From contig OZ005690.1 of the NCBI GenBank assembly GCA_963930775.1, forward strand, positions 5,874,225 through 5,938,224: DNA of 64,000 nucleotides, written 5' to 3'. The position numbers and the translations under genes were made by a program. Source of the DNA: Cliona cf. orientalis. Lineage: Eukaryota; Porifera; Demospongiae; Clionaida; Clionaidae. Numbering within the stretch: the first letter of the stretch is position 1; each line of letters begins with the position of its first letter. Under the pieces are notes generated by a model that saw only the letters and a list, made by a program, of their open reading frames with translations, made no database searches and was not told where the DNA came from. Of the stretch, positions 8,959-64,000 are shown piece by piece.

Positions 8959-11900
8959 TCACCTAATTACAGGGGCATCTCGCAGTGTAAATCCTTCCAT
9001 AATAATAAATAATTTTATTAGATGTGTGTCTATACGTATGTTACTTTTGCATGCTGACAGGGCACTCTTCAGAGCATCTGCCATGTCACCCTGTTCTACA
9101 TCAAGTAGTAAGTGGAAAAACCCTTGCCAGTTCACAGGGTATCGACCTGATTCTGGTAGCATGTTTCCATTGGAGAGCCACTTGACCATAACTTCACGAA
9201 TCCGTCCAGACTGGTCACCGCTGTTGTTCCTTTCAATAATCTTTATCTCGGCTCCTGAGAGATGGAGTGTTTCAGCAGCCTTGTCCCAGACTGGAGCGAG
9301 GTTTCGAAGTAGACGTAAATCACGTCTCTTGTTTTCATTGTCATACCACTTTAGGAGTTGAAGGTAGCCAAGAGTAGGAACTTCATCTGGATTAAAGAGA
9401 ACAAGGATAGTAGCTCCACTACCATTACAATCAAGATCGATGCACAATAATGAGAAGATAAGCTACAATAAATGTTCAGTCAAAGATGGGCACTCACCCC
9501 ATATAGGGTCATTGGGTAGCCACTCTGGATCAGCTTGAGCTCCGTCTCCACCATATGAGCTGCTGACATCACCTCCCTGGTTGGCAAAGTGAAATGCATA
9601 TGCATCAAAATTAATGCATCACACATCATAGCAGCTGCAAACAAAATGTGTCTAGTACTGAGCTGCCAGAGAACTAAAGATACTAATGCATCTCTACATA
9701 CAGCAGAATTTGTGAGTGGTGAGATAAATGGAAGACTATGATGCTGAGTATCAAAATGTGGAAGTGACAAATAGAAGGAAAAGTGTGTGTTCTTTTTGCT
9801 ATAGTGGCTTACGATTTCTTCCAGTAAGGATTCTATGATAATATAAGATCCAAAGGACACACTGATCCGCTCAACGTGACTCAATTTCATCTTGGAAAAT
9901 GCTCTGCCATTAACCTTGTTCTCTAATGGAAAGGGAGAAGGGTTGATAATCTTTTACCAAAATTAACCATTATATCTTACTTCTAAATGATGCGCAGTCC
10001 TCATCATCCACTCCCTTTGCCTTTAGCAACTCACATAGCTCCTCTGCAGTCATGTTCACATCAAACTGAGCCGCGTCTGGACCCAATTCATCTGTAAAGA
10101 AACAGAGAGACACTATACATGACTCAGAAGATACTTTTGTGATTGCTCACACCTTGGATTCTTTGGGAAAATTCTTCCACTCTCTGTGCAAGCACTGCTT
10201 TGTTTAGAATGGGACCACTCAAAGCACTGATGATGACGCCATAAGTTGGGTTATCACTGTTAGCCACCCAGTGGAGCAGAGCAGTTCTCAGGCACTCGAC
10301 GCTGCGATGGTCACCTTGTGGGATGTCTCGCTCAATTTGCTTGATTTGTGCCTGAGGAAACTCCAGTTGACCCATGAACACAATCCAGTTAGCAGCTACT
10401 TCAGCCAATACTGCCAGAAGACGATCAACGTGCTTTGGCTTCACTTGCAAATTTGCCATGGGGGCTAAATCATCCTCTGTGAGAGCACAATGACCTTTCA
10501 TGACCTATAGATAGGAACACAAGCATTATGTGCTGTAAATCCGGAAATTTTCGTGTAACAAAACTTTCATTGGAAAATTTTTCGTGTAAAAATATTTTCA
10601 TAGGAATGACCCTGTGCCACATAGAAGCATGCGCATACGATTTAATTTCGTGTTTTTAATTTTTGTAGCTTCTATTGATTACGAAAATATTTCTACAACG
10701 AAAATTTCCAGATTTACGGTATATTGCATATGTTGTAAATTTGAGCGAATACGTGCCCATGTGACAGTAAAGATCTGTGTCACATTTAGCCTATGTAATA
10801 GTTCTTACATTGACTAAATTATATATACACCCACCTTGTGCTGAAGATTTTCAATTGCACCATTGTCCATGCTACCCTGATTCACTGCCATTCCTCCTTT
10901 CTGAGATGCAGGGCTCTCTCCAGCATTCTCCATTCCACCTGGACCTAGAGACCAACAGTTAGCTACTTATTAGATTCATTAGGACTGCCGTATTCAAACT
11001 CTCACTTTGTAGCTGCTTCACATCTTTAGCAGCTGGTAATAGTGTGGGTGCAGACAACCGTTCATGTTGTCCGGTTAAAGAGTGGCTCTCACTAGATGAT
11101 CCAAGGTTCTCCTGGAAATGGTAAATGACACATTTCCAATAAGGATACATGTAACTTCAAACATGAAAATTAAAGCCAAATTCTATTACTGCAGTGTTAG
11201 CTATAATATTATGTCTCTCCCCCTACATTTATGTAACAGTTAAACTTCCTCCTTTCCACTACCTGTGTGTAAGCCACATCCTCTCCCTGGCAGCTGCTGT
11301 TGTGAACATGATTTACCCATAACTATGGTCAAAAGAGCCCCTTATCACTCTTATGTACACAACCATTATATGCAGGTATTGCATGCCAGACCATGTCCTA
11401 ATCAGCCTACATGCTAATCAACACATTTAAGGCACACTGTATGAGCATAAGCCAGATATGGTCAGTGCATGTCACCTGATGGGTTACAGACACACAGTCA
11501 TCATGTATAAGTTACCCCTTTGCCTACACTTTGTGTTATAGTTTATAGTAGGCAAGCTCTGTGAGATAATTATTCAGCTCTACAGGAATCATCATATTCA
11601 ATCATTCGGAAGAATTGTTTGAGCAGTTGACAAAGCATGAAAGACAACATTGCACATATGGGACACTTCAGCCCAAGAGGCAATATTGTCCCTCGTGCTA
11701 TGTCAATTGCTCAAACAGTTCTTCATTGAAACATAGCAATGACCCCGTGTAATTAAGACAACAAGCTAGGAGAAAATAGTTGCTACAACTTACTATGTCC
11801 TTGTCCTGTGGAGGTGGTAGTGGACTGGGAGGAGACTTCACGAAACACTTTACCTCTTGATGTCTTTTCATTTCTTCCTTCAGCCTTCTAATCATCTCAC

Positions 11901-14857
11901 TACTGACAGGATTGTTGTCAACAGCACAGCAATCCAAACGAGTCAGTCTGGGAAAAAGCAGTGGTAGGTGATCAATCAGGACAGATACACCACTGTCATC
12001 AATTCCGTTATGGCTAAGGTCCCATGACTCTAGCTTACTACAGTGATAAGGTGATGAAGATTTGAGTTTAGTAAGTTGATCAAGAAGTTGTCTAAGATCA
12101 TCAGAAGTGATCCCACAGTGATGCAAGGAAAGCTGCTTCAAATATGGACACAAGTGCATAAAGCCAACTAGAATATGAACGCCCTCTCCAGTAAAGCTGT
12201 TGTCATCTAGATAAAGCCTTGTAATAGTGCTGCTCTGGGGCATTTGACAAAGCTGTAGCCCCACATCTCTGACTTTCTTACCTATAGTCGCATTGTTATC
12301 AACATTTAGGGAGTCAGTGTTTGGAAGACCACCTCCAGTTGTTGTCAGTTGACATCTGGACAAAGATAGTCCCCAAAGTTGGCAGTGGCTACTACTAATC
12401 ATTCTACCAATAGCTACGGTTCCCTCAAGTCCAAGTGGGTTGCCATGAAGATAAATTTCACTCATAGACCTTTCTATCACAATCTTCCCAGAGCAAATGC
12501 CATCAGCCAGACATGAAACTCCTGCATGTGGCACGGACATCATTGTCATTCAATACAAGTTTCCAAAAGTGGCATGGACCCACCAGACTCTTGACAAAAG
12601 CAGTCAAATCTAGTTTTGTCTTACTAAGTAGGATATAATTGATCTTACAAATTTGCATAGAGTGAAGTATACCAGCTGTCACTGACCCGTGGCTTTTATC
12701 TTGAGATATGCCTCTAGCAAAAGCTGATGCTCCCGGTACACCAAGGTTGTTCTGAGAAAGATCAAGAAGGGCAAGACAGGGACAATGAACTAGAAGAGCT
12801 TCAACAAAAGTAGCCAGCAGTTTACCATTTGTGTCTGCATCACTTGTGAGAGAACCATCCAAGTAGAGCTCTTGTAAGTTAGCTAATGAACCGTCACATA
12901 CTGCACCTTCTAGCTTCTGCAAACCATGAACTCCAAGGGGATTGTGAGACAAGACTAAGGATCTATTATAGGGTTTTGCTACAACAGAGCCGATACTTTC
13001 AACCCCAATCCTGTTATTACTAAGATTGATTGAATCTGGTGAATTAAAAGCAGCTGATGCTCTGTAGAAAAGATCACTCACACTCGTGTCGGTCAGTTTG
13101 TTTCCACTCAGACCAATACGCTTAATCTGCAGCTTTCCATGCTTACTGGCAAGTACATCTGTTAATGCTCTGATTTGATTCTCTCTAATGCCACTATTAT
13201 CAAAGTTGATAACCATACAACCACACTCCTGCATGTTGGATATGACATAAATTACAGCAGCACAGTCATGAGCAGTTTGAGGATGACCAAAGTCTATTGT
13301 AGTTGCATTGCTAAACATGATGCCAGTAGTGATGAAGCTGTATTTACCAAGAGAGTGAATCACTTCCTTGTTAATGGTTATATTTCTTGCTTCAAAGGCA
13401 CAGTGACAGAGAAGCAGGCTGTGATAACTGTGTGTACGTATGTCTGATAAATGCTTGATAACTTGCTTGATATCTAAATTATTTTTTTTCCACTCTTGAC
13501 TCACATGAAGGATGCCAAAAACAAATCTCCAGACCATGATAAATCGTTTTGACTTAGTGTTTAAATTTGCATTCTTTGCTAATGAACTGATATCAAAATT
13601 AGTCCTCTCTAATGGAGCTAACTCGGAATTATGTGATTGTATGATCTTAACCAATGTGTCTTGATGCTGCATCACCAGATGCAGGGCAGCAAGGTACTCT
13701 TGGAAGCTCAGATGGAGAAAGTGGAAAGATACTCCACACCCTGTTTCAAATATTGACTCAGCAGACTGCAGTAAGCCAAAGCAAAGTATTGAACCCAAGC
13801 CTTGAGGAAAGAAGTCATCAAGTTCTCGTTGAGAAAAGACAATGTGATCCTTTTCTAAGGCTTGATAAGCAAACTCACATAGAAGCCGCCATGACCGTTG
13901 CAAACCACCAGGGAGGGCATCAAAGTTAGGTAGACTCAAAACAGTATTATACATATCGACTTTATGTATATTACGAAGAATGATGTTTAAAACTATCTTT
14001 GTGTATAGCTCTGTCATGGTGGTGGGAAGGGCTTCTTCAAGAGTGCGCCACAGGTGACAAACAATGGCACAGTTGAGGGGAACACTGCACACACTCCCAA
14101 CTAGTGGGTTATATTCCAATTGCTCTAAGAGACGATCAGCCTTCTCCTTGTCACTGATAAATTCAGACTCAATATACTCTTTCATGTTCTCTTTATTAAA
14201 GCCATGTACCTCAACAAACCGATCAATGTATGGAAATCTGTGAAGTGGAGCAGAGATAGAAGGCCGGGAAGTCACTACAACTGACAAAAGGGGAAAGCTT
14301 TGAAAAAGCAGCTTATGTATGAAAGAACCTTCTAGTCGTTCAGATTCACCAAGTTCATCCCATCCATCGGCAACAATTAGCACTTTCTCTCCTTCCTCTT
14401 CTTCCAAATAACTAGCTACAGAATTGCAAATACTTTCACTAGAGTGCAATAGTTTGAACAACTCAGGAAGGGAACCTGCTGATGCAACTTCTTTCTGCCG
14501 AAGTGGTAAGAGGAGAAGCAACTCAAACTGCTGGAAGATTTTCTCATCTGCCCAGTCCTCAGAGACAGAAGTGCAGAGAGTGGTCTTACCTATACCAGCA
14601 TCACCTTCCACAAGGACCTTTCTAACTGGCTTCTTCCCACTCTCCACCATAAGGAGGTCACCATAAGCCAGGGGAGTTCGTTTAACAGTCTTATCTTCTC
14701 TACCCCTCAGCTGGTTAGTAGAGTAGTCCTCTCCTTTCTCTCTTTCCACTAACTGTAACTGAATAAGTTTGTTTGTGTGGCATGGGGGCCACTGTTTCTC
14801 ACGGTTGATGAGCCTTTCTCTGTACTTCTTTTTGATGCCAGTAACAAACTTTTCCAT
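8959..14857 (-). CDS. NLR: NACHT-LRR followed by Death, SAM and Death domains (8 exons)
   Basis: Exons on the minus strand, as I read them: 14857-11794, 11111-11006, 10944-10835, 10504-10153, 10091-9981, 9922-9813, 9576-9498, 9386-8959. All seven introns are GT-AG (58 to 682 bases) and every junction is in phase. Exon 1 holds NACHT: Walker A GDAGIGKT, Walker B VLIVADGWDEL and a VVVTSRP sensor motif, followed by ribonuclease-inhibitor-type LRRs. Exons 2-3 are a linker. Exon 4 is Death-like (WIVFMGQLEFPQAQIKQIE, then LRTALLHWV). Exons 5-6 form a SAM-like domain (EELCELLKAKGVDDEDCASF, then NKVNGRAF). The last exon is a second Death-like domain (VWDKAAETLHLSGAEIKIIE). The first ATG after the open upstream stretch is at 14857; a further 5-prime exon is possible. 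Total is about 1,450 aa. The LRR part changes frame once near 12510-12540. I infer a cytosolic innate immune sensor with its effector domains C-terminal, unlike the usual N-terminal arrangement. Confidence 0.78.
10535..10717. mobile_element. Small inverted-repeat element in an NLR intron
   Basis: The ends are inverted copies of GTAAATC.GGAAATTTTCGT, about 20 bases each, around a ~140 base interior with further inverted AAAATATTTTC-type blocks. It fills most of the 330-base intron between exons 3 and 4. The form is that of a MITE; the family is uncertain. Confidence 0.6.
11609..11724. repeat. Short inverted-repeat element in NLR intron 1
   Basis: A 116-base stretch whose ends are inverted copies of GAAGAA.TGTTTGAGCA.TTG (about 22 bases). 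It lies inside the 682-base first intron. It is probably a small MITE or hairpin relic; no target duplication could be fixed. Confidence 0.5.
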
Positions 14858-14929
14858 GATGACATGTATGCAAACACTATCCACAATATTATTTTGCAGC
14901 AGATTCCAATGGGAGATGTAAAGAGGCAA

Positions 14930-15245
14930 ATGAGGGTGAGTTATGTTGCAATATTACAATGACCAGCTGAGTATAACAACTAAATGAGTGTAAGGTAGTG
15001 GAGAAATACAATTACATTAGTATAGACAAGATGCAGGCTTATCTACATAGAACAATCTCCACATATGCATGGATAGCAAGGCATAGAAAAGCTGACTAGA
15101 AAGGTGCCAGAGTCAGAATTGTCATACAGTGATGATTCTCATCTTGGGCTTTCTAACGTTGGCGACCCTTGCCGTGTGCGTGTGTATGCATCCTGTGCTG
15201 CAACCACCATCAAAGGCTTAGTTTGCAAGCACATTTTTCATAGTA
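14930..15245. other. Upstream region of the NLR gene
   Basis: No gene or clear repeat is seen. On the minus strand this is the presumed promoter side of the NLR gene. No convincing extra exon with a death-fold domain was found here. Confidence 0.4.
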
Positions 15246-16834: not shown

Positions 16835-19800
16835 CCGCCGGCCAAGACCTACGGTCTTTACAAACAAAGCTCAATCTTGAGGGAGGAGCAAGGCGAGTTT
16901 AGCGACGGATCGCTAGTAAATTCCATTGCTTGTTTTGACAGTAGCCACACGAACTAATCCATCCTTTCCGGGGTGAACTTGTATCACCTTCGCTAGTGGC
17001 CACTTAGTAGTCACGAGGTTATCTTCTTGTAAGACAACAATATCATCAACTTGAATATTGCGGGAGGGGAAATTCCACTTGTTGTGTTTTCTCAAGGCTG
17101 GGAGATACTCGTCTGACCAACGCTTCCAAAAATGGCGAACAATAGATTGGCAGAGATACCAACGTTTCAGTAGGGAGAGATTGCGATAAGAGAGAGAAGG
17201 ATCAGGAATGGATTCTAGTGGCTTTCCGATTAGAAAATGACCTGGGGTTAATGCTTCAATATTGTCATCTTCAAGAGGTAAAGGAGCTAGTGGGCGGCTG
17301 TTGAGACAGGATTCGATCTGAGCGAGAATGGTTGTCAACTCTTCAAAAGTCAGCTTAGTGTCAGCCACAACTCGTTTGAAGTGAAACTTCATAGACTTGA
17401 CAGCAGCTTCCCACAGTCCTCCGAAGTGTGGGGCACATTCAGGGATGAATCTCCAATCGATGGATTGAGCTGCACAGAAGTTTGAGATGTCTCCTTGAGT
17501 CTTTTGTTTGTTGAAGAATTCGTGAATCTCTTTCAACTCTCGGCTAGCCCCGGTGAAAATAGTTCCATGATCACTTAGAATTAGACTAGGTTTGCCACGT
17601 CGAGCAATAAAACGTCTGAGTGAAGCAATGAAGGCATCAGTAGTGAGATCTGAGACTGGCTCCAAGTGTACTGCCTTCACCGGAAGAGAAACATAGAGAC
17701 AGACATATGCCTTAACAATTACAGGCTTCCTCATGTGAGCATACTTGACTTGAATTGGACCAGCACAGTCAATCCCTATCTTATCAAACACCGGTCCTGG
17801 GGTGAGACGTTCGATTGGAAGTTGTCCAGTCATTTGTGGGGAAGGCCGTGTAGTGAGCTTGCGACAGGTAACGCATCCTCTGGTGATGGAGCGAATAAGC
17901 TTGCGACAGTTAAGAATGTGGTAACGATTGTTAATCGATGCCATGAGCAAGGTTGGACCAGCATGCAGCAATCGGAGGTGCTCCGAGCGAATGATCAAGT
18001 GAGAAAGGGGGTGTTTGTGATATAAGATGATTGGATGTTTCTTTGAATAAGACATCTTAGAATGTTGCTGTCTACCACCAACGCGTAGCAGACCCTCAGA
18101 ATCAATAAACGGTCGTAGATTGAGGAGTGGGCTAGATTTGTCAACATATGACTTCCCTTTGAGGGATTCTATTTCATCCATGAAATAATCTCTTTGAACA
18201 ATTGAGCATAAACGTAGCTCAGCTTGATATAGCTCTTGAGTAGTGAAATATGTGACATGAATTTGTTTCGTTCCTAGCTTGTGACTGCGACAATTTCGAA
18301 CGAATCGGAGCATCCAGGCAGTGATTCGTTTCAGTTTTGCAAATGAGGAGTAGTTGCTGATATTAAACAGGCATGAGGATGTGCTAGACGCGGTGTGCAG
18401 AGAAAGCTCTCTTTCTTCATCCTTTGACTCTGGAGGGGGTATGGGGAGTTGTCTAGGCCAGTGAGAGGGATTATGATGGAGCCAGCTGGGACCTTTCCAC
18501 CACAAGTCGTGTTCAAGGAGCTCAGAGGGATACATTTCTCGTGATTCCATCTCTCAGGAGCAATGAGCTCTACAATAGAAGACACACGATTACCAACATA
18601 CGTCTTGAATCTTCTTGGGTTGCCAACAAACCAGTTGAGGACAATAGTGCTGTCTGTCCATGCATATAATATGGAGCTGAGGGGTATGTTAAATACATTG
18701 TGGGTGTGGAAGAGCAGCTGGGCGAGAAGATAAGCTCCACACAATTCCAGTCGAGGAATAGTCAACTTCTTGATCGGTGCAACTTTTGTTTTGGATGAAA
18801 CTAGAGAGATTTGTGTTTTGCCGAACGTGTCGGTTATCCTGAGATAGACTACAGCTGCATAGGCATTCTCTGAGGCATCACTGAACCCATGCAACTGGAG
18901 AGAGACGACGTGTGTGCTCTTGTTGAAATAGCATCGTGGTATGAGCTTTGTTGGTAGAACATCAAGCTCTGAACGCCACTTGAGCCATTCGTCATAGATA
19001 GCTTCTGGAACAGGATCATCCCAATCAACTCTTTGTTCCCATAGCCTCTGCAACAAGATTTTCACCTTGATGATTGTGGGGGCAAACCATCCAAGGACAT
19101 CAAATGTCTTGGCAACATCAGAAACTAGGTCACGCTTTGTGACATTCTTCAAAGGGGGCAAGTTGGCAATAGTGAGGCGAAAGTGATCTGTTTGGGCATT
19201 CCATTCTACTCCAAGAGTCTTGGTGTACTGATCTGGAGAAGGGAGTGATTGGATGGGCTGGATTTCTCTAAGCTCAGTAGGAATTCGCTTGATAACGTCT
19301 GGGTCGCTAGAATTCCATTTCCTCAACAGGAAACCACCCTTGGAGAATAGAATATGTAGCTGGGTGTGCAAATCAATTGCCTCTTCTGTGGAATTAGCAC
19401 CAGTTAGACAGTCATCCACATAGAATGAGGTGTCAACGACTTTGGCTGCAATGGGAAACTCAGTGGCAAAATCAACAGCATTCTGCTTAACTGCCATGTT
19501 GGCGGCAAATGACGAAGCAGAAACACCAAAGGTCACTCTTGTCATCCGATAGTCGACTAAAGGGTCCTTGATGTTGTTCCTCCAGATAAATCGATGGAGG
19601 TCCCGGTCAGTTGGAGTCAACTCGACAGCTCTGTACATCTTGCTTACGTCAGCTGTGAGAGCGATGCGATGGAGTCGAAATCTGAGAAGTACATCTATCA
19701 GAGGAGGGTGTATTGTGGGTCCAACTAGGAGTGTGTCATTGAGCGAGACACCGTTTGAGGATTTGGCAGATGCGTCAAATACAACCCTCACCTTGGTGGT

Positions 19801-20146
19801 GGTGCTGTGTTCCTTGCGTACAGTGTGCATAGGGAGATAGAAGGTTTCCCTTGGTGGCTTTTGTAGGTCGTCTTGAGGTACAGGCTCTGCATGCTTCAAA
19901 TCAAAATACTCATTCATTACCGTTGCAAATTCTTGAAATTGCCCTTTGGCATAGAGCGAGCGTTCAAGAGAGTGAAATCTCCTAACTGCTTGTGGTCTGG
20001 ATTCACCCAATTGCTTGCTTTGAGGATTTTTGGGGAGGGGAACAATGAATCTACCACTTTCAGAGCGAGAGTGATTATCTTTGAAGTGCTGCACGACCAT
20101 ACGTTCCTCTGGGGAGAGATTCATTTGTACAAACATAAACATACCG

Positions 20147-20509
20147 AAATAGTGCTAATAGAGGCTAGACTGGCTAGCTATGGTTGCAACCCACTACACT
20201 GTGTGCATGCAATGTCACAATGACAGAATAGCAAAGTTCTTGACTTAGAATAGCATTCAACAACAACAGAAACGGACTGACAGACTGAGCAAAACTAGTA
20301 AAACCTAAGCACAAAACTCAACTCTAGAGGAGGGAGGCCCCTGGGGCCCTGTACACAACAATAGTAAGGCCTAACACAGACAAAGATAAGGCTAAAGAAG
20401 TGTTAACCATCAAGTTTTCACACTTCGTGACAAACAGGCTAAGGTATTACTGTTCATTACATAACATTTAAGTCCTAAGATGTGGTAGTCTTGTGCAAAC
20501 ATAAACATA
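20147..20509 (-). repeat. Long terminal repeat (high-coordinate copy)
   Basis: A direct copy of 16472-16834, nearly identical. On the minus strand this is the 5-prime LTR and would carry the promoter of the element. Confidence 0.88.
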
Positions 20510-30476: not shown

Positions 30477-33400
30477 ATGATAATCTGCTTTCTCATTCAC
30501 TTGCTAGTAGTGTCGAGTCATATTCTGACTCTGACGGCCGCTCAAGGGGTGGTCTACTATGTCAAACCAACTGAGCCCTGTGCTCACAAGAGCAGCAGCT
30601 GTCCATCCAATGAGACCTGTCACACAATGGACCACTATGCCAGCAACAGTAGCCACTACTTCTCACCAGACCACATCAATGTCACACTCTACTTCATGTG
30701 TGGTGTCCACAATTGCACTCAGAACCTGCACATTACTGATCTCGAGAGATTTACTATAGCAAGCGCCTCAGGAGAAAATGATGCAACAATGTACATGCCA
30801 ATACCAAGGAATGTCCCAAATGATCCAGAAAACACTGGAAATCGCACGTACATATTTGCTAATGTCATAACTGTAAGGATTAAAGATATCACAATTTTTT
30901 TTATCTCACTCAATTTTATTGGAAAGAATTCCACATTTGAAGTAGAACATGTGGAATTTTATGGATATTCAGGGTTCTCATCATCACTGGTATCGGTCAT
31001 CAACATAACCAATTCTCAAGCTATTTTAGAAGACTGCATGTTTCAACGTAATTCTTTTATTAGAATTCAATCAAATGCTGTGCTTCAAGTCAGCAACTGT
31101 GCGTTCTCTTCATACAGTCATGCTCTGTACTCAGCCATTTTTGTCGACAATAGTACATTGAAACTAATGGGAACTGTGACTTTCTTCAACAACACTGTTG
31201 GCAATGATCAATATTCTTCATGTGGTGGAGCAATTTCAATTAATCCTGGTGATTTAATATGTGAAGGAACATCCAGATCAATTTTTAGCATTACCAAAGC
31301 ATACGTAATTTTTAACAGTAATAGTGCAAGCCGCTGTGGTGGAGGATTTTACCTGGGATGTACACTAATCACTGCATTTGACAACGTGAGCATGATTTTT
31401 GTTAACAATGTCGTTAAGAGTAAGTATAATAATTATGGAGTTGGAGGTGGAGCTATGTACCTGTTTTTGAGTGATTTCATTGTTAACAATTCCGTCATAC
31501 GATTCCTTAATAACTCAGCTAAAGGTGTAGCTCATGGCGGAGCTATTTATCAAACACAAAGCAATGTATACATATACATCAGCGAGCACAGTGCTATTAG
31601 TTTTATTAATAATTCAGCTTCGTCTCTAGGCGGAGCAATCTATCATCGTAACGGAGAAGTTATAATATCAGTTGACAAATATTCCAGAATGCTGTTCTAC
31701 AACAACTCTGCTAGTCAAGGAGGTGCACTCTATATACAATTCTCAGGGATCATAAAAGTTGGCAGCAATTCAGATGTTGAATTTAGCCATAACACTGCCA
31801 AGAAATTTGGTGGAGCAGTCTATGCTTATGATCAGGCCTGCCTATTTAGTTTCAAAAGCTCATCTAGTGTAGTGTTGTTTAGAGAGAATGTAGCCAAAGA
31901 AGGAGTAGGTATGCATGTCTATGGAGCAAGCATCAAAAGTTGGGGATGTGTTAAATCTCACTGTGGAGAAAGTATTGTCCGCTATATACCAAGCTTAAAC
32001 AGCAGTCTCTCACCAGTATCATCCAATCCAAAGAGAGTGTGTCTATGTGACCTCAATGGAAAACCACAGTGTGCTAATATTTCAAGCATGTTTATGAATT
32101 GGTTTAGAGTATATCGCGGAGAATTATTCAACATTTCTGCGGTTGTAGTTGGTTACGACTTTGGAGTTACATTTGGAACAGTAAATGCAGGCTTTGTGCC
32201 ATCACAGAAACAAAGTAAATCAGCACTGCATCCTGATCAATATCGTCAATTCCTCGGAAGCAGTGGACGTGTACAGTGTTCCAATATTAACTATAGTCTT
32301 TATTCAAGTAATACAAGGGAATCCTTGCATGAAGCATTATCTCTACACACCTCAGGTGTAGATGTCACATATTCCTTTGGTAAGCAAAAGGTCAAGCAAA
32401 TGATTCAACTCTATGAAGATAGCCACCATAGATGTATTAATATTGATCTTCTTACAGCACCAGTGCTTGTTAACATTACGCTGCTCACTGGCTGTCCACC
32501 AGGATTTACTCTCATTCTCGTGGATCAATTGTATGGCTGCAACTGTTATCCTGTCCTGCAAAACAACCATTTTGAATGTTTCATTATTGACAATGAAGGC
32601 TACCTCAAATGGAATAGCACTGTGTGGGTGAATGCAACTTTTAATAAATATAATTTAAATGAGAGTGATGGAATATTACTTGCTCGTTATTGCCCTCTGG
32701 ACTATTGTAAGTCAGGTGAAAAGGTTATTAACCTTGACAGAGATCCTAATGCTCAGTGTGCCAATAATCATGCTGGTATTTTGTGTGGTGGATGTGAAAC
32801 CAAATATAGCCTTGCAATTGGATCTTCTCGATGCATCAGGTGCTCCAATGACAGCCATCTTTCATTGTTTATGTTCTTTATAGTTGCTGGTTTTCTGCTT
32901 GTGATTTTTATCCTTGCACTAAATCTAACAGTTACAGAAGGACTTATAAATGGCATCATACTTTATGCAAATACCTTATGGACTTTTAAAAACGTTTTGT
33001 TTGCTTTCAAACAAACCTTGACAGTGAATGTATTTTACACTTTTATTGCCTGGCTCAATTTAGATTTTGGAATAGAGACTTGTTTCGTAGTTGGTCTGAC
33101 TGCCTTTTGGAAAACATGGCTTCAGTTTCTATTCCCTCTCTACATCTGGCTCATTGCTGGAGTCATCATCATTGCATGTCGCTATTCCTCTCGCCTGACT
33201 AACCTCATTGGTGACAGAGCAGTTCCTCTCCTAGCTACACTCTTTCTCTTGTCATATACAAAACTCATTCGCACAGCAACAGCAATATTTGAGTTTGAAG
33301 TTTTGACACATTATCCCAATCAAACTAGTAAAAGCGTCGTTTGGTATCTTGACGGAAGTCTACAATACTGCAAACATCCACACATCTATCTCTTTCTTGC

Positions 33401-34031
33401 TGGTCTAGCTTCTTTGATCTTCTATCTCACAGTCACTCTCTTCCTCCTCCTGATACAGTGCTGGAGGAGAGTCTCTCACCTAAGGCTGTTGAGGTGGATA
33501 AACAAATTTACTCCTTTCTATGATGCCTACTTTGCTCCCCTCAAAGACAAACACCATTACTGGTTTGGAACACTACTCGTGGTAAGAATTACACATTTGA
33601 TATTTTTCACAGTAACATCATCCACCTCTCCACTCGTTGGCTTGCTACTTCTACAATTCTCGTTAGCACTACTTTTCTTTTATTTATCGATTCAAAATCT
33701 TTATAAATCCAAGTTGGTGCGCATTCTAGAGGGTGCTACTCTTTTAAATATAATGATTTTGGTTGGTTTTACTACATACACAAGAAATGAAAAGGCTTTA
33801 TTCGTGGAGATTTCAATAGCATTTTCCTTGATGCAGTTTACGGTTGTCATTATCACAAGTCTCAGTAGAACTATCTGCAAAAGGAATCACAAGTGTTTAA
33901 GTAGAAATGGTTATCAAGTGATCGATCAAGAGATTGATTCAGATGACAATATGTTTCATGAAAGAGTAGAAGATCCAGAAATTTATGAACGAAATGAGAA
34001 TAACTTGAGGAGTACGGTTAGTACCTACTAG
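30477..34031 (+). CDS. Pmp-type beta-helix repeat, multi-pass membrane protein (copy B, 1184 aa)
   Basis: Close paralogue of the gene at 4732 with the same architecture: signal peptide, seven GGA[IVL]/FxxN repeats (GGAISI, GGGFYL, GGGAMYL, GGAIYQ, GGAIYH, GGALYI, GGAVYA), a Cys-rich extracellular region, about seven or eight membrane helices and a cytoplasmic tail. It keeps a longer tail than copy A, ending in an acidic stretch (EIDSDDNMFHERVEDPEIY). Differences are concentrated in the beta-helix (for example residues ~250-300), while the membrane part is nearly unchanged. I take this as a hint of diversification in the ligand-facing part. Single exon; function unknown. Confidence 0.87.
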   Translation: MIICFLIHLLVVSSHILTLTAAQGVVYYVKPTEPCAHKSSSCPSNETCHTMDHYASNSSHYFSPDHINVTLYFMCGVHNCTQNLHITDLERFTIASASGENDATMYMPIPRNVPNDPENTGNRTYIFANVITVRIKDITIFFISLNFIGKNSTFEVEHVEFYGYSGFSSSLVSVINITNSQAILEDCMFQRNSFIRIQSNAVLQVSNCAFSSYSHALYSAIFVDNSTLKLMGTVTFFNNTVGNDQYSSCGGAISINPGDLICEGTSRSIFSITKAYVIFNSNSASRCGGGFYLGCTLITAFDNVSMIFVNNVVKSKYNNYGVGGGAMYLFLSDFIVNNSVIRFLNNSAKGVAHGGAIYQTQSNVYIYISEHSAISFINNSASSLGGAIYHRNGEVIISVDKYSRMLFYNNSASQGGALYIQFSGIIKVGSNSDVEFSHNTAKKFGGAVYAYDQACLFSFKSSSSVVLFRENVAKEGVGMHVYGASIKSWGCVKSHCGESIVRYIPSLNSSLSPVSSNPKRVCLCDLNGKPQCANISSMFMNWFRVYRGELFNISAVVVGYDFGVTFGTVNAGFVPSQKQSKSALHPDQYRQFLGSSGRVQCSNINYSLYSSNTRESLHEALSLHTSGVDVTYSFGKQKVKQMIQLYEDSHHRCINIDLLTAPVLVNITLLTGCPPGFTLILVDQLYGCNCYPVLQNNHFECFIIDNEGYLKWNSTVWVNATFNKYNLNESDGILLARYCPLDYCKSGEKVINLDRDPNAQCANNHAGILCGGCETKYSLAIGSSRCIRCSNDSHLSLFMFFIVAGFLLVIFILALNLTVTEGLINGIILYANTLWTFKNVLFAFKQTLTVNVFYTFIAWLNLDFGIETCFVVGLTAFWKTWLQFLFPLYIWLIAGVIIIACRYSSRLTNLIGDRAVPLLATLFLLSYTKLIRTATAIFEFEVLTHYPNQTSKSVVWYLDGSLQYCKHPHIYLFLAGLASLIFYLTVTLFLLLIQCWRRVSHLRLLRWINKFTPFYDAYFAPLKDKHHYWFGTLLVVRITHLIFFTVTSSTSPLVGLLLLQFSLALLFFYLSIQNLYKSKLVRILEGATLLNIMILVGFTTYTRNEKALFVEISIAFSLMQFTVVIITSLSRTICKRNHKCLSRNGYQVIDQEIDSDDNMFHERVEDPEIYERNENNLRSTVSTY

Positions 34032-55728: not shown

Positions 55729-56415
55729 GGCCACTACGAAGAAATACCTTGTTTCCGGTAACCCGACAATGGCTTTGCAGAGTGAGTCGGTCGGTCGGTT
55801 CGTCAATAGGCCGGCGCCCGCCACTTTGGTAGCCACGCCCACAATCAGGGATAACCACACCCCTGCGTAGGTACCATAAATCGTATGTACTTACAGCCGA
55901 AGTCGTTCACCAGCACTCCCACGTCGTTTTCTAGCTCAGTATCTATCCAACTGCTCCCAGGTTTAGAGGAACACTTGACTACAATATCTTCATGAACCAC
56001 GCACTCTCCATCGGGTTTCACCCGTTCAAAAAGTTGTGCAAGTGTGGTCGTGTCTGGAACTTTGAGGAGTCTATCACGAACCAGAATCTTAGCCCCACTC
56101 ACCACGGACGCGCAGATGCCTACAGAAGTCATGGCGTGGTCTCGGTCTCCAGCTGAGCTGTGGGAGCTACGACGGCGTACGTTGTCAGTATGCACTGGCG
56201 CGCACTGGCATATATGGAGGTGATGTCAGCTGATTTTTATGAACATCTGCGCATGTGTAAATCCCGAACTATGGCGCCAATTGGGCAAGGCATGGGCGGT
56301 CACACACCCCATTGACCTTTATACTCTGTGTAATTATAATAAATGACACACCCCCCGCAGGCCATTCAGTGGGTCGGTCGGGTTACCGGAAACAAGGTAT
56401 TTCTTCGTAGTGGCC
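55729..56415. mobile_element. PIF/Harbinger-type element carrying an exon-like ORF
   Basis: A 687-base element with 39-base inverted ends starting GGCCACTACGAAGAAATACC, flanked by TGA on both sides. The ends are perfect or nearly so, suggesting youth. No transposase is present. It carries a GC-richer interior with a minus-strand exon-like ORF (55895-56132). Confidence 0.82.
55895..56132 (-). CDS. Exon-like ORF inside the Harbinger-type element
   Basis: ATG at 56132 to a consensus donor (GCT followed by GTAAGTAC), 79 codons. It contains ASVVSGAKILVRDRLLKVPD, TTTLAQLFERVKPDG and DIVVKCSSKPGSSW. I do not recognise the family. The first part looks like a ubiquitin-like or TE-associated fold (strand, then KVPDTTTL), but this is only an impression. 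It could be the first exon of the autonomous parent element or a captured host exon. Whether it is expressed is unknown. Confidence 0.35.
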
Positions 56416-56811
56416 TGAGGCCAAATCGCTTTCAAGTTCACTCATGATAGCTCACGATACTGTCACAAAAAGTGGCAGCCTGACCGTGCACACCATCATC
56501 CTGTGTATAAAGGTAAAAATTAATAATTATGTAGATCTTGCCAGTTATTACAGCATACCCCATTTCTCACATTTTGCTTCTGCATGTCGATCTGGAAGCT
56601 TGTCACGGTGCCATACTACGAACAGAGGGTACAGCTCCATCTGCAGATATAGATCTGGGGACGAGACTAAGCGCTGCATCAGCACAATTTGAAATGAATG
56701 GCACATGCATGTCACGTGATCGTTAGGGCCCATGCGTTGGACTCCGCCCATACCATACAGGGCTCAGTAGAGAGATTGCATGAGTAAGTGAGAGTATTAA
56801 ACGAGACATGA

Positions 56812-57235
56812 AGAGAGCTGTCAAGATGTCTCATCTTTCGGCAGCAGCCTGTCAAGATGTCCCATCTTTCGGCAGGTAGCTAGCCTTGTGTGAGAAGAGA
56901 GGGGCAACGATGAGCCCAGCCAGAGAGCTGTCAAGATGTCTCATCTTCGGCGGCAGCAGCCTGTCAACATGTGTCAAGATGTCCTATCTTTCGGCAGGTA
57001 GCCTTGGGTGAGAAGGGACTCTGGCTTTTGGGGGTGACGATGAGCCCAGCCAGAGAGCTGTCAAGATGTCTCATCTTTCGGCAGCAGTCTGTCAAGATGT
57101 CCCATCTTTCGGCAGGTAGCTAGCCTTGGGTGAGAAGGGAGCTTGTGGGGGCAACGATGAGCCCAGCCAGAGAGCTGTCAAGACTCTCATCATTCAGCGC
57201 AGCAATTTAGTAGCCTTGTATGAGTAGAGAGCGGG
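56812..57235 (+). repeat. Minisatellite, ~110-130-base units
   Basis: Four units start near 56812, 56922, 57052 and 57169, each with AGAGAGCTGTCAAGATGTCT, CATCTTTCGGCAG and AACGATGAGCCCAGC blocks. Units differ by small indels, including TA versus TAGCTA at 56877-56882 and the equivalent site near 56999. Confidence 0.9.
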
Positions 57236-57379
57236 CCCAACCACTTCTTGCATCATAATTATAGCTAGCGGGAGAAAGTGTGAATTTGGAAATGTTAGTG
57301 ACACTTCATGTAGCTATCCACCAGCACAGATAACACAACAAGACAACAAGTTTCATGTGTACACAGAGTGTGAATGATA

Positions 57380-57505
57380 TATGTTAGTGACACATGATCT
57401 ATCCACTAGCCTAAGAAACTATGCAGTATACTTCATGAGTGCAAAACGTACAGGAAACTTCACTCTCCACTAGTCTAAGAAACTGTGCAGTATGCTTCAT
57501 GAGTG
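57380..57505 (+). repeat. Short tandem duplication, ~70-base unit
   Basis: The CCACTAG.CTAAGAAACT, GCAGTAT.CTTCATGAGTGC and GGAAACTTCACT blocks are repeated. A further unit is split by the TIR element at 57506. Confidence 0.7.
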
Positions 57506-57856
57506 CAGGGGCGTAGCCAGGATTTTAGAAAAGAAGGGGCAAGATTGTGCGCGAAGCGCGCGAAAATTTTGACCGGAAACCACACCCACTAATTAAATTA
57601 CGCGCTCCGTTTTGTGCCCTTTGAACTCATCAAACATTCGAGATTCCAGACCAGACACTGCTCGATCGAGGCATAGCTCGAAAGTTTGTTTACGGATAGC
57701 TTTATAGTCAGCTTTTCTGTGATGATTTTTGACTCTGAAGACTGCTGTAACAACTTGGTGCTGGTATTTATACGGTAAGAAGTGATAAATGTGACATGAC
57801 TCTGGGAAAAAAGGGGGGGCAAATGCCCCCTGTGCTCCCCCCTGGCTATGCCCCTG
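57506..57856. mobile_element. TIR transposon, non-autonomous, CAGGGGCGTAGCCAGG ends
   Basis: A 351-base element with inverted ends CAGGGGC.TAGCCAGG and GAGTG on both sides. The interior has a GCGCGAAGCGCGCG block. The terminus type is widespread among hAT-like non-autonomous elements, but the flanking repeat seen is 5, not 8, bases, so the superfamily is left open. Confidence 0.65.
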
Positions 57857-58589
57857 GAGTGCATGTACAAAAAACGTAGCTACAGGGAACTTCACTTGGA
57901 CATCCACTGTACGTTTTCTGTAGTGCAGGAAATTCCACTTTTTGTCCAGTGGGTGAAAGGCTTCACAGAACATGCACCGAGATAAGTGGTCCTAAGTAGG
58001 TCATACATGTACCCGGTGTAGATGGGAGACCTTACACACGCTAATATACAATTTTCACTCCTCAGACAGAGAGAGGTCAAATTACACTTGATTGGACATA
58101 CCACATACTTTGTATTTGTGGCGGCCGGTGATCCATGCATATGTACCCACAATACTGCAGCCAGATATTGTCAAGTGCATAAGAAAGAGTGCTTGCAACG
58201 CCTTATCTTTAATTTACTATCATTAGAAATGAAATTTTAGGAAATTCATATTTGACCTTGGATGGTAGCTAGGTGTGGGAGGGATGCGTTAAATCAATAA
58301 CAGTGGCTAGCTAGAGTGAAAAACGTACTACACACGAGGTGGCTACATGCATGGCAGATTCAGAAGCCACACTTTGGCACACAGCCTATAGCTACCAATG
58401 CAAACGCACATCTTATTTATAATCTGGGCCTGTTACAATCCATAGTGTGTGATTATTTACTACCACAATTCCAGTATAGGCTCACTGCATTGGTCATGGC
58501 ACCTAGCTACAAACAATAACTACAATTTCAATAATAGCTATGTAGCTACATATATTTTCATTACCTTGGTCTCCTCTCTTTCTTGACCA

Positions 58590-58745
58590 ACTCTCATCCT
58601 CCCTCTCTCCGTCCCTACCTCCCTCCATCCATCTTACCCTCCCTCCCTCCGTCCCTACCTCCCTCCATCCCTCCCTCCCTCCCTCCATCCTTCCCTCCCT
58701 TCTTCCCTCCATCCCTCCTATTCTCCCTCCCTCCCTCCCTGTCTC
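58590..58745. repeat. CCCTCC polypyrimidine tract
   Basis: Irregular tandem CCCTCC/CCATCC units. The Pro-Ser and Gly-Arg reading frames through it are low-complexity artefacts. Confidence 0.95.
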
Positions 58746-59319
58746 CTTTGCCTGAGGCAATGCAGCAATACCGAAGACACACACATAAGAGTGTGCATCA
58801 AACAATGGGACGGGATGGCTGCCCATAGTAAACAATACTGGTACTGGTGCAAAGAGGGTGGCTGGTTAATAATGGTGGACATCTACTACTAGCTACGTTG
58901 CATAAAAGAACTTGTGAAGGGGGGTAGCTAGCCACCCCATCCTCCCCCCCCCCCCCCCCCCCCACCCTGGATCAGCCCCTGACTCCAGTCCAGCCTTGTT
59001 CATACTATAGACCATCATGGGACAAAGCTAGAACACCTTGTAGCTACTTGTACAAATCCCTTCCCTCTGACGTCGCAAAAAGTAGATTCTGACTCAGGTA
59101 TTATAATATTAGCTATGCAATCATATTTAGCTATTTGGCTTCCACAAGTCGGATCATTGTTGTGTTTGCAAACTTGAAATTAATATCAATGTGCCTGATG
59201 AGTTTATGGTGTGTATGTCTTCCTAAAGGGAATCCTGGGGTCAAAGGTCAGCCTACATATGGCTCACTTACAGCACATATCTTTTGCTGGCATTAATGTC
59301 ATCCCACAATTTTACATTC

Positions 59320-59700
59320 ATTGTTTATATCTGGGAAGGTTTTACGTGAGGTTAAAGTCCATCTGTATGAGCAGTGTGTTGTTGCAGTATTATCAGCCCA
59401 CATAGCTACCTATACATTGTAGCTATATTATTATATCTAGGGAGATTTTACGAGAGGTCAGAGGTTATACATAAATCACCCCCTGATTATTTTGTTGGTA
59501 AGTCGGTATTACATGGGAAGATTTTACGTAAGAACTTTGACCTTACGTAAAATCTTCCCATATAAAGTAACGAATGTAAACACTGGGAATACTTTACATG
59601 TGACGTAAAATCCTCCCATGATTAGATCATGGCAGAAGTCACGTAAAATCTCCCCATGATTAACCCAAGGGAGAAGTCACGTAAAATCTTCCCATGATAG
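59320..59700. repeat. Cluster of TGGGAAGATTTTACGT repeats in both orientations
   Basis: Seven or so ~20-base copies of TGGGAAGATTTTACGT or its complement occur near 59330, 59440, 59513, 59542, 59604, 59640 and 59678. The pair 59513-59532 and 59542-59561 is a perfect 20-base hairpin. Several copies sit next to ATGAT. Origin unknown. Confidence 0.75.
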
Positions 59701-60750
59701 AAACATGGCATTTTTCCTACTTTTATGTAAACATCTGTAGGACTGCTGAGAACCATAGTGGGTTAACCCACAAAATTTAGCTAATGTTGAATTAGCCCCC
59801 CAAATCTTGAAAAAATTAATGTGTCTCATGAGCTGCAGAAAATTCACATTTCTGAAAAATTCAGTAACTTGGTAGAGTAGCTACAATGTATGGTTTTTAA
59901 TACATTTTTGGGCTTTTTAGACAATTCCCCACATTTAATTTGGGGTTAGCCCACTATATGGCAACATGATAGTGCATTCCTGCATACTATAATGCGTTGC
60001 TAGGTGAGGCACCCTTAAGAATACAATTTGTAACCTGAACTAATTGTGATGACTTATACTGCAAAGATTCATACATTCCATAGTAGCTACCGTACTTAAT
60101 CTAATACTACGTATGGAAAAAAAATTAATTTCAATTTTGAAAAACGCGCGATTTTCTGGTAAAGGTCGTCAATCGCTCCGTATATATACGTTATGAGAAT
60201 TCGTGAAATGCTAATTTCTTACGCCGGTTAGATTGGATCATACGTTGTATTCGATTAACTACGGTATAGCTGGCTAGCTAGCTCTATAGACTGTAAAAAA
60301 TAAAGTCATTTCAATCCAACGATCTCAATTTCATTTCAACATAACAAAGTTCGTTGGAGACTCACTGATTATATGTTTCAGTAAGCAGAGTGCATGAATA
60401 CATGCAGAGGAGGATAAATTATTCTTAATGGCTGGTTAAACCTAAGGTATAGCTACTCAGTTTTAATGTATAGCTATACCTCAAGTATCTACTGCAGCCT
60501 TTGCACAGTCGTAGCTAGACTTGATCAAGTTGATGTCATTGAATGAAATACATAAATTTAAAGAGGTCTATATAGCTCTATTATAGTATAGGGAGTTTGC
60601 AATAAGAGATACCATATTATATCATAAGGAAGACAACTTTCAATTGAACCCAGCAACTGGAAGAATACTATCAAGAGCAAGTCACAGCAGAGCTCCACAC
60701 TATACCTTTTGAAACTGCATAACTAGGGCTGTACTTTGAGTTATAGTAAG

Positions 60751-62859
60751 ATGTTTACTGTGTTCTTCATTGCATGGGTGGGTTTCTCTTTTTTAGCTCA
60801 CAAGTTAGCAAAATACTATTTTCAGTCCGTCTCAAGACTCCATGGCAACGAAGACACTACAGTTTCGAGTTTATTGACTTGGGCAGCTATACTTGTGACT
60901 GGTGTGCAACTTGTGAGCTGTGGCATGTTGGCATTAGTCAAAGTACCAAAACGTGACACAAAGAAGGTTAAACAGCTCTCGCTTGGTGTGATGTTCATGG
61001 TTTCCATTCCACACATGTTTGGTACGCTGATGACTAACTACAGCATGGCACTGATTCCAGCTGCATCTACACACCTCATCAAAGTCATGGAACCTATGGT
61101 TACTGCAGGTATAGCCTGGCTCATCGTAGGAGTCACGATCTCTAAGCCTAAACTACTCTCCCTGGTATTGGTGCTAATTGGTGCTGTTGGAGCATCTTTA
61201 AACCCGCATAGCACTTTCCTCGCTGACACAGCCTGGCAGGGAATACAATTTGCACTGCTTTCAACCCTAATGTATGCAGCAAGAAACGTCACCATAAAAT
61301 ATCTTCTTGGAAGTAGTGTCATTTTTGAGGCAGCAACAATGGGTAAAGTTTCACTTATAGGAGCAATTACACTCTTGCCTCTTTGCATAATTGCGTGTGC
61401 ATCAGTAACCATCCTTCAGTGGAATATGGTGACCTTAGCAATACTAGGCGGATCTGCCCTCTGTCATGTGGCCTACACCTACATATCCACCTGCGTTATC
61501 CTTCAATATGTAACTGTCATTGGACACGCACTTGCTAATGTGGCAAAGCGTGTGCTGGTGATTGTTTTGCTCTATCTATTTGGCCAGCAGTATTATCTGT
61601 CACCTTTCTTTGTTGTGGTGTGTTGTCTTGGCCTATTTTTGTACATCAAGAATTCTCAGGCTACTGCTCAGGAGGCTTCGGATTCGCAAATAAGAGAAAT
61701 AACAATCAGCACTTCTCTGCGTCAATCTCATCGTATTATGATTACTGTGATACTTGCAGTCATATCATTGCTACTAATCAGTTTGGGACTGACTGCAAAC
61801 AATGCAAAGACAGTTGCAGTTACTACTACAGTATCACAGAATACTAGACAATCACAACTGATTGAACACCCAAATTACACAGACAGTACCATGGAGTCAA
61901 TGCTCAATGCTTCCACCACAGTTCATGAAGCTCAGAAAATTCAGCTGCAGATCTACAAGGAACTGATAGGTCATTACGGGAAAGCTATCCTGGTTGGACT
62001 TGCTGATCATGAGAACTTAGGTGATTCAGCAATATCTGTTGGTGAATTTGAGGCCCTCGATAAGCTAGGGATCGAAATTGTTTATGCCTGCTCGGATATT
62101 GAATGTGGCGAGTTTGAGGAGGCAAAAGAAGTGGTTAATAATGTATCAGAACCAGTTGTGGTGCTAGCATCAGGAGGAGGGAACTTTTGCAATTGGATAT
62201 CTGGATGTGCTCTACGTGAAAAGCTGATTCAAGCATTCCCTGACAGAGATGTGTTAGTTTTTCCACAAAGTGTTAAATTTGACGACAAACAACAGATGGA
62301 AACACATGCTGATGTTATGAACGTGCATCCAAATGTGACGTATCTGTTTCGTGATCATCAATCTTACGACATCATTGTCAATTCAGGAATCTTCAAGTAC
62401 AACAAAGCTGTTCTCTGTCCAGATGCAGCAATGCAGATAGGAATGATACAACCCACAACTATACCAACTCATGATGTTGTATGGTTGAAAAGAAAGGACA
62501 AGGAATCTCTTTATTCAGAACTGCCCACATTTCCTAGAAACCTGACAATTGTTGTTGAAGACTGGGTGGACACAAGAACACCTAAAGGACAGAATATCAA
62601 GGAAACATCTTACAAGCGGTTAATGACTGGAGTTAAGTTTCTGTCTCGAGGTAAAGTTATTATTTCTGATCGGCTCCATGCCCACATTCTTTCGGTATTA
62701 ATGGATAAACCAAATGTAATACTCGATAACACATACAAGAAGGTGACAAGTTTTCATAGTACGTGGACACCAAGTGTTGATAACGTACTAGTTGCATCAA
62801 ATGTAACAGATGCCATTGAGAAGGCACAGTATTTGTTGCATAAGTATTACAGTAACTGA
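60751..62859 (+). CDS. Fusion of TPT/PEP-translocator-like transporter and polysaccharide pyruvyl transferase (702 aa)
   Basis: Single exon. The first ATG after an upstream in-frame stop is at 60751 (A at -3). Residues ~1-303 form about ten membrane helices of the triose-phosphate-translocator/drug-metabolite-transporter family (SNPHM-like and NYSMALIPAASTHLIKVMEP in the middle; AKRVLVIVLLYLFG near the end). An additional helix (~329-347) precedes a linker with sequons at ~375 and ~386. Residues ~410-700 match polysaccharide pyruvyl transferases (PS_pyruv_trans): NLGDSAISVGE (~422), ASGGGNF (~473), FPQSV (~504), PDAAMQ (~557), SDRLHAHIL (~639), KVTSFHSTW. Ten helices plus one would put the enzyme in the lumen, in keeping with the sequons. 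Inferred role: import of PEP into the Golgi and transfer of pyruvate ketal to glycans. Substrate and location are not proven. Confidence 0.88.
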   Translation: MFTVFFIAWVGFSFLAHKLAKYYFQSVSRLHGNEDTTVSSLLTWAAILVTGVQLVSCGMLALVKVPKRDTKKVKQLSLGVMFMVSIPHMFGTLMTNYSMALIPAASTHLIKVMEPMVTAGIAWLIVGVTISKPKLLSLVLVLIGAVGASLNPHSTFLADTAWQGIQFALLSTLMYAARNVTIKYLLGSSVIFEAATMGKVSLIGAITLLPLCIIACASVTILQWNMVTLAILGGSALCHVAYTYISTCVILQYVTVIGHALANVAKRVLVIVLLYLFGQQYYLSPFFVVVCCLGLFLYIKNSQATAQEASDSQIREITISTSLRQSHRIMITVILAVISLLLISLGLTANNAKTVAVTTTVSQNTRQSQLIEHPNYTDSTMESMLNASTTVHEAQKIQLQIYKELIGHYGKAILVGLADHENLGDSAISVGEFEALDKLGIEIVYACSDIECGEFEEAKEVVNNVSEPVVVLASGGGNFCNWISGCALREKLIQAFPDRDVLVFPQSVKFDDKQQMETHADVMNVHPNVTYLFRDHQSYDIIVNSGIFKYNKAVLCPDAAMQIGMIQPTTIPTHDVVWLKRKDKESLYSELPTFPRNLTIVVEDWVDTRTPKGQNIKETSYKRLMTGVKFLSRGKVIISDRLHAHILSVLMDKPNVILDNTYKKVTSFHSTWTPSVDNVLVASNVTDAIEKAQYLLHKYYSN

Positions 62860-64000
62860 GGAATATATGCCTGAGCTGCACTGCACACTAGAGAGAATTC
62901 AACAATATTCATTATAAATACGTAAACAATGATGTCGTCAGCACTATAATATAATAGTACTATTAAACAATAATTATTCCCTTGCACCTTTGGAACCAGC
63001 TAGCTAGCTAAAATAGTATAGCATTATTATGTATGCGAGTACGTCACCACAAAATTGTTAGGTTATAATAATATTATTAAAGATACTTCAATTACAATGA
63101 AGCACTATAGTGCAAAACCCTCGGCGCAAGAGCAATAGCTAGTCTGTATACCCTTGCAACCAGGCTAGTCTGCATATGTGACCAACTGTGAGAAAAGGGA
63201 CCATTTGGGACCATTTGGGACTTTGTGTTTGTCGTATGTATAGCTTGTACTAGCATGCATAGAGGATAATGTATATATATTCTGTAGGTGTATCCACTCT
63301 TTGTTGATGTCAATACGCTGATACAAGTAGCTATACTCACTACTATATAATTGTAGAAAGCAATGTCACGATAGAAATATATCTTGTTTCATACTAACAT
63401 GAATGGTCGCTTTTCTCATAGCAGGTCACATATTGCAAATTTGCCAAATAACACTGTACAGTGTACAGCTAGCTCTAGTTAACAGTTGTAGAGAGTAACC
63501 ACAAGAATGCAGTTATATGGATTGTATGCAATTAGGTAATTCGGCCGAGCGAAGCGAGGTTTATACTCGGATCGATCGAATTTTTATACGGTTTCTTTGC
63601 GAGCTTCGAAAACTTCGTTCTTGCTTGCTAGAGGGAGTCCAGCTCCATCGCCGGCTCCAAGGATGTCAAACAAAGTGACCTACTTTCACGAAGATTGAGG
63701 GCAGCCACAAGTCCACGGTCGTCCCGGTGTCTTCAAGTGTCCAATGTACAGACGACTAAATCGACAAAAGTAACTAACTACACTAGCATTAAGATACTGT
63801 AACGTGTACATATACTGTACTATAATAATTATTACATATCATGCATTGTGCAATGACATAATAATATTGGCTGAAAAGAATTTTCAATATTTGCTGATTA
63901 TGAATAAGCATGTACACAAGGTAATACCTAAAGTCATTCATTGGTGGCTCATCTGGGTATAAGTATCTACTCTATAATTGTACATAGCATAATATTATTA
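62860..64000. other. Downstream non-coding region
   Basis: AT-rich with no gene recognised. 63541-63600 has a CCGAGCGAAGCGAGGTTTAT block shared with 23612. A tandem GGGACCATTT duplication lies near 63199-63220. Confidence 0.4.

Follow-up and report, generated by a model that had tools for sequence, protein, structure and literature searches.

The window analyzed here is a stretch of 64,000 nucleotides from Cliona cf. orientalis (contig OZ005690.1, positions 5,874,225 to 5,938,224; GenBank assembly GCA_963930775.1). At 60751..62859 it holds a single-exon open reading frame (ORF) of 702 amino acids, which by its translation, its Pfam matches and a second genomic copy is a fusion of a TPT (triose-phosphate/phosphoenolpyruvate translocator family) transporter, a membrane anchor and a pyruvyl transferase. 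The gene and all of its features described below lie on the plus strand. The 702-codon frame contains no internal stop, and the chance of 703 open codons is about 1e-20 at the base composition of the window. The TPT membrane domain (residues 47-298; 60889..61644), delimited by Pfam, a match to the solved structure 5y78 and hydropathy, aligns with positions 32-290 of the 291-position PF03151 profile (64.1 bits vs a cut-off of 30; E 1.7e-17). EamA, a transporter family related to TPT, is also above its cut-off on part of the N-terminal half (30.2 vs 28.2 bits). The transferase domain (residues 374-702; 61870..62856), delimited by Pfam, a match to the fission yeast enzyme Pvg1 and alignment, carries a PF04230 match at residues 422-660 that covers profile positions 1-278 of 280 (67.6 bits vs a cut-off of 25.3; E 2.2e-18). 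The initial annotation of this DNA had proposed a single unbroken ORF joining a TPT domain to a PS_pyruv_trans domain with the key motifs GDSAI, GGGNF, FPQS and SDRLHAH. Both domain assignments pass the Pfam cut-offs, all four motifs are present in the translation, and the frame is kept in the second copy.

That second copy came from searches of the 216.8 Mb genome (149 contigs), in which a profile search found two PF04230 loci, as did a protein search that used the transferase half as query; each search scored both of its two first-look candidates, and both loci are this fusion. The other copy lies on the minus strand of contig C15 and encodes 700 amino acids, with 663 of 700 residues identical and an overall synonymous divergence of 0.116. 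Alignment with it outlines a block common to both copies, with interruptions, at about 59745..63094 (+). Within this block there is one other ORF of at least 80 amino acids, antisense to the fusion gene, and another starts at 63092, the edge of the block. Directly upstream, window positions 56000-59750 contain several genome-wide multicopy repeat families, with at least 141 matches among the 40 of 3705 candidates that were scored.

The ratio of non-synonymous to synonymous divergence (dN/dS) between the copies is 0.16 for residues 1-300 and 0.15 for residues 401-700, and 1.18 for the linker residues 301-400 (11 non-synonymous and three synonymous changes). These values indicate that both halves are under purifying selection and that the linker serves as a spacer under little constraint. 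Not one gap event separates the copies over 2109 aligned coding bases, 300 linker bases included. In the non-coding flanks, 10 gap events fall within 480 aligned bases upstream and 13 within 391 downstream, where part of the stretch runs past the end of homology. At the upstream rate, about six gap events would be expected in the linker, and the probability of none is about 0.002. No GTRAG splice donor occurs at 61600-62000, where in-frame GT-AG pairs do occur (114). Because the frame is kept gap-free in both copies and this donor is missing, the junction is very probably translated and the single-chain fusion real. The view that the fusion is an artefact of two adjacent genes, of a junction intron (which the initial annotation had named as a refuting outcome) or of a decaying pseudogene draws on the faster evolution of the linker, but it is largely refuted, and in our estimation most improbable, given an unbroken frame in two diverged copies, the missing linker gaps, the lack of a GTRAG donor and purifying selection on both domains.

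Pvg1 of fission yeast (PDB 5ax7) is the sole solved relative of the transferase half found by sequence (E 9.8e-46, residues 374-697), with an identity of 37% in a MAFFT alignment and 34% by BLASTP. Numbering the printed Pvg1 chain with an offset of 53 brings each of the ten residues that papers name onto the matching letter, and eight of the ten are kept in the sponge protein (H101, N103, D106, R217, R266, R337, H339 and K361). The two changed positions are Y165, now Trp, and H168, now Gly. In the alignment, Asp425 (62023..62025) is the equivalent of the acceptor/catalytic residue D106 (PMC4872226), and Arg581 (62491..62493) is that of R266, which corresponds to R207 in the catalytic loop of CsaB (PMC10435577). 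Residues assigned to phosphoenolpyruvate (PEP) are Arg534 (62350..62352), equivalent to R217; Arg641 and His643 (62671..62679), equivalent to R337 and H339; and Lys664 (62740..62742), equivalent to K361. The catalytic residues, whose loss on alignment the initial annotation had named as a refuting outcome, are thus retained at these six positions. CsaB of Paenibacillus alvei is likewise a pyruvyl transferase, and its PEP-binding residues are equivalent (PMC10435577); identity of the sponge domain with CsaB itself was rejected, the NCBIfam model TIGR03609 giving 18.6 bits vs a cut-off of 213.1.

Gly485 (62203..62205) stands in the column of H168, a residue of Pvg1 that bears on acceptor selectivity (PMC4872226). 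N-acetyllactosamine (LacNAc) is a very poor acceptor for wild-type Pvg1, which is attributed to H168, and the changes H168A and H168C raise activity on it (PMC4872226). A glycine in this column is no more than suggestive of a LacNAc acceptor for the sponge enzyme.

A hydropathy scan with a 19-residue span gave 12 peaks, ten of them in residues 1-299. The highest of the 12 (2.88) is an additional helix between the two domains, TM11 (transmembrane helix 11; residues 329-347; 61735..61791), which we propose to correspond to Pvg1's type II anchor. The 12th peak (residues 469-487; 1.12) is next to GGGNF and is taken as a buried strand. Pvg1 is a type II membrane protein (PMC4872226), and because of this the extra helix is most simply read as an anchor of the Pvg1 kind that entered the fusion together with the transferase. 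Pvg1 has a membrane helix, a short stem and a catalytic domain in the same order as the fusion, and differs from it in being a stand-alone enzyme supplied by the separate proteins Pet1 and Pet2. From hydropathy and comparison of the copies, the linker between TM10 and TM11 (residues 301-328; 61651..61734) is predicted to be cytosolic and the stem (residues 348-373; 61792..61869) luminal. With ten transporter helices and one anchor helix, the transferase is in turn predicted to lie in the lumen. The extra helix noticed by the initial annotation coincides with the highest hydropathy peak, and both this helix and the luminal transferase that the annotation also claimed stand, after topology prediction, as predictions. 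The most basic transporter loops, residues 64-75 (six Lys/Arg) and 300-328 (four Lys/Arg), both fall on the predicted cytosolic side. Of the eight N-glycosylation sequons, six are in the C-terminal, predicted luminal half, and all eight positions are common to both copies.

For the transporter half, 5y78 is the only solved relative found (phmmer, E 3.4e-6; about 25% identical). We take 5y78/5y79 to be GsTPT of Galdieria, a plastid-type protein; it has no enzyme attached, unlike the fusion. In the alignment with 5y78, Lys111 in TM4 (61081..61083) pairs with the Lys of its THxxKxxEP motif, and Lys266-Arg267 in TM9 (61546..61551) with its Lys-Arg pair. These three residues, which belong to the phosphate site of TPT carriers, are invariant between the two proteins. 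The genome holds further TPT matches elsewhere, one of them matching piecewise as if split into exons; this split gene is presumably SLC35E1-like. In GsTPT2, phosphate is coordinated by Lys/Arg residues of TM4 and TM9 (PMC6508934).

We hypothesize that the two halves work as a unit. In such a protein, the N-terminal TPT module, with ten predicted helices and both ends cytosolic, would import PEP into the secretory lumen, probably that of the Golgi, and the 11th helix would serve as a type II anchor that keeps the Pvg1-like transferase, at the C-terminus, on the luminal side. Pyruvyl transfer consumes PEP and releases phosphate, and TPT-type antiporters, among which we would count Pet1, swap phosphorylated compounds for phosphate. 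The transferase would convert PEP and a terminal galactose to a pyruvate ketal and phosphate. Because both functions reside in one chain, the freed phosphate would serve as the counter-substrate of the protein's own transporter, so that a single protein would close the cycle of donor import and by-product export. On the strength of the domain, residue and topology comparisons, we judge it reasonably probable that the gene encodes a Golgi PEP/phosphate antiporter feeding its own attached luminal pyruvyl transferase; its PEP specificity, Golgi location, acceptor, biological role and expression are what we infer. The closest functional parallel is found in fission yeast, where Pvg1 relies on the separate PEP transporters Pet1/Pet2 (PMC4872226; PMC6801904). 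These Golgi carriers of S. pombe resemble the transporter half in the proposed supply of PEP to a luminal pyruvyl transferase, but they are separate proteins, and the likeness is one of proposed role.

Several observations weigh against this reading, the fast linker among them. With respect to topology, two of the ten transporter hydropathy peaks, the fourth and the sixth, are weak (1.09 each) and fall below the 12th peak within the transferase, and loop 20-44, predicted to be luminal, carries two Lys/Arg. An AlphaFold model from a three-row alignment (mean predicted local distance difference test score 46.1, predicted template modelling score 0.32) is too poor to use, and the whole basis of the luminal placement is hydropathy and homology. 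With respect to substrate, 5y78 was deposited as a putative hexose phosphate translocator, and its His, which we presume to have a role in substrate handling, is aligned with Thr92 in the sponge protein; the kept Lys/Arg site speaks for a phosphorylated substrate, of which PEP is only one candidate. With respect to acceptor, a one-residue gap lies four columns before the H168 column, and another placement of this gap pairs H168 with Cys486, although neither candidate counterpart, Gly485 or Cys486, is bulky. The H168 column in the eight bacterial relatives described below is H in four, F in two, A in one and N in one. Because the column varies in this way, with His absent in four of the eight, Gly485 alone is no proof of LacNAc use.

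The substrate leaves room for another explanation, in which the transferase acts as proposed, PEP enters by some other carrier, and the transporter half carries triose phosphate, 3-phosphoglycerate or a nucleotide sugar, or is a scaffold for Golgi retention. The specificity of the TPT family is broad, the identity to 5y78 is about 25%, other TPT matches exist in the genome, and the cut-off of TIGR00817, the phosphate/phosphoenolpyruvate translocator subfamily, is missed (56.9 vs 317.9 bits). We nevertheless consider this explanation unlikely, since purifying selection acts as strongly on the transporter half (0.16) as on the transferase (0.15), the Lys and Lys-Arg of the phosphate site are retained, the attached enzyme belongs to a family that uses PEP, and in yeast this step is served by Golgi carriers dedicated to PEP.

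The transferase half has relatives in bacteria, and these bear on the origin of the fusion. A tblastn search of plasmids with the transferase half matched 106 records, six of which were chosen for comparison (loci L025-L030), and a scan of genome contigs gave two loci, both in one Bacteroidales genome (L017 and L018). These eight bacterial rows score 86-144 bits against the transferase half (identity 26-32%), vs 161 bits for Pvg1; five alphaproteobacterial relatives reach 115-144 bits. Equivalents of D106, R217, R266, R337, H339 and K361 are present in all eight rows. Unlike the fusion, the bacterial proteins are encoded by stand-alone ORFs of 303-355 amino acids, several of them adjoining glycosyltransferase genes. 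In one phage record a match is confined to the transferase half, and viral contigs yielded no relatives, whether the query was the whole protein, its transferase half or either of two alignments. The transporter half had no plasmid match at E 0.01 among 72,556 records. The initial annotation had described the transferase as bacterial EpsO-like; as worded, this description was rejected, as Pvg1 outscores the eight bacterial rows examined, with bacterial kin close behind, and the CsaB cut-off is missed by far, EpsO itself being outside the comparison.

Trees of the transferase half, a check that the initial annotation had suggested, were built and do not resolve the relation between the sponge protein and Pvg1. 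In an 11-row tree, the sponge rows and Pvg1 were grouped in 1% of 200 bootstrap trees, and Pvg1 paired with the very long Lactiplantibacillus branch L029. When L029 was removed, the sponge rows and Pvg1 formed a group at 76/83, with a long-branch warning. There are no introns in the frame of either fusion copy. Horizontal transfer, retroposition and vertical descent could each account for the gene. It is plausible, though we would not call it probable, that the gene was acquired from outside animals and then kept by the sponge, the source being either a bacterium that supplied the transferase or an alga or another protist in which the fusion already existed. Such an origin would agree with two intronless copies in a genome where another TPT gene is apparently split into several exons, with bacterial scores only somewhat below that of Pvg1, and with a review in which a Pvg1-seeded search returned mostly bacterial sequences (PMC6801904). 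Retroposition would likewise yield an intronless gene, however, and the best match found is fungal. The absence of a plasmid match to the transporter half and the grouping of sponge and Pvg1 in the tree without the long-branch row also speak against a foreign source, the latter tempered by the 1% obtained with that row kept.

As to the acceptor, sponges offer a candidate. The aggregation factor of Microciona bears the trisaccharide Gal(4,6-Pyr)b1-4GlcNAcb1-3Fuc, which is of LacNAc type (PMC7828597, PMC6801904). Its pyruvylated carbohydrate was described in 1993 (reference in PMC7828597), and sponge glyconectins bear sulfated and/or pyruvylated hexoses (PMC7828597). We infer a link between the fusion gene and the aggregation-factor glycan, and the Gly in the H168 column, taken with this LacNAc-type glycan, sharpens the idea. 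Import of the protein's own PEP donor and action on sponge cell-recognition glycans, both proposed by the initial annotation, are consistent with the findings. The genome is rich in Calx-beta domains, which are typical of aggregation-factor genes and cluster on contig C19 (at least 165 matches, with 150 of 973 candidates scored). Dense Calx-beta arrays at about 156-447 kb and 2.97-3.0 Mb of this contig are possible aggregation-factor gene clusters. On the opposing side, the pyruvylated LacNAc glycan was described from Microciona, a sponge other than the present host. The adhesion role of the pyruvylated trisaccharide is itself debated, because an atomic force microscopy study, conducted under non-physiological conditions, saw no self-binding of it (PMC7828597).

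The fusion could also pyruvylate an acceptor other than the aggregation factor, such as N-glycans, glycolipids (as in Aplysia) or other glycoproteins. Pyruvylated glycolipids of a mollusc and pyruvylated N-glycans of yeast are known (PMC6801904, PMC6994554), and nothing in the sequence names the acceptor; the pyruvylated hexoses of sponge glyconectins (PMC7828597) and the many Calx-beta domains of the genome count against such an acceptor. We regard it as a serious possibility, somewhat short of an even chance. The fullest proposal is that the protein is both a self-contained transporter-transferase, with PEP in and phosphate out through the same antiporter, and a dedicated maker of the sponge pyruvylated LacNAc recognition epitope. 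This combination is offered tentatively, as one that may well not hold in both of its parts.

The surroundings of the gene are compatible with an animal genome. Two closely similar long frames of 1158 and 1183 amino acids, at window positions 4735-8211 (+) and 30480-34031 (+), carry Chlamydia PMP-type repeats (PF02415) and, judged by eye, a hydrophobic C-terminal part with multiple helices; the repeat carried by this pair of animal genes was known first from bacteria. Pieces of NLR-like genes with NACHT, NLRC4_HD2 and leucine-rich repeat domains lie at 11698-14953 (-) and 8959-9462 (-), with a weak Death-domain frame below the cut-off nearby. Pieces of a Pao-type retroelement, comprising an A17 peptidase, a weak reverse transcriptase, an H2C2 zinc-binding domain and DUF5641, lie at 16913-20154 (-).

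Elsewhere in the genome, the silicatein active-site pattern, in which a Ser takes the place of the cathepsin Cys, has four matches, and the reversed pattern has none. Three of these are silicatein-like, cathepsin-like in-frame exons (CGASYAF) that lie within 5 kb on both strands of contig C12 (3668500-3676000). The fourth site, on contig C19, reads CGACYAF and keeps the Cys. The silicatein-like exons indicate a siliceous sponge, in agreement with the sponge host assumed for this DNA.

In the open-licence literature, for which long result lists were seen in part, we found no animal pyruvyl transferase gene and no fusion of a transporter with a pyruvyl transferase named, although the architecture may sit uncommented in eukaryotic protein databases. 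The yeast genes are named in a 2019 review on anionic glycans of non-vertebrates, which mentions sponge glyconectins but gives no enzyme for them (PMC6994554). In a paper on horizontal gene transfer in Amphimedon, the term "pyruvyl" is absent from the main text (PMC4784904).

The natural joining of a transporter to the luminal enzyme that consumes its cargo as donor would couple supply to use within a single chain, an unusual arrangement. If our reading is true, the isolated C-terminal domain would transfer pyruvate to LacNAc in its native form, where Pvg1 first needs a change at H168, and the N-terminal half would stand in for Pet1. The fusion gene is a concrete, intronless and easily cloned candidate for the enzyme behind the pyruvylated adhesion glycan of sponges.

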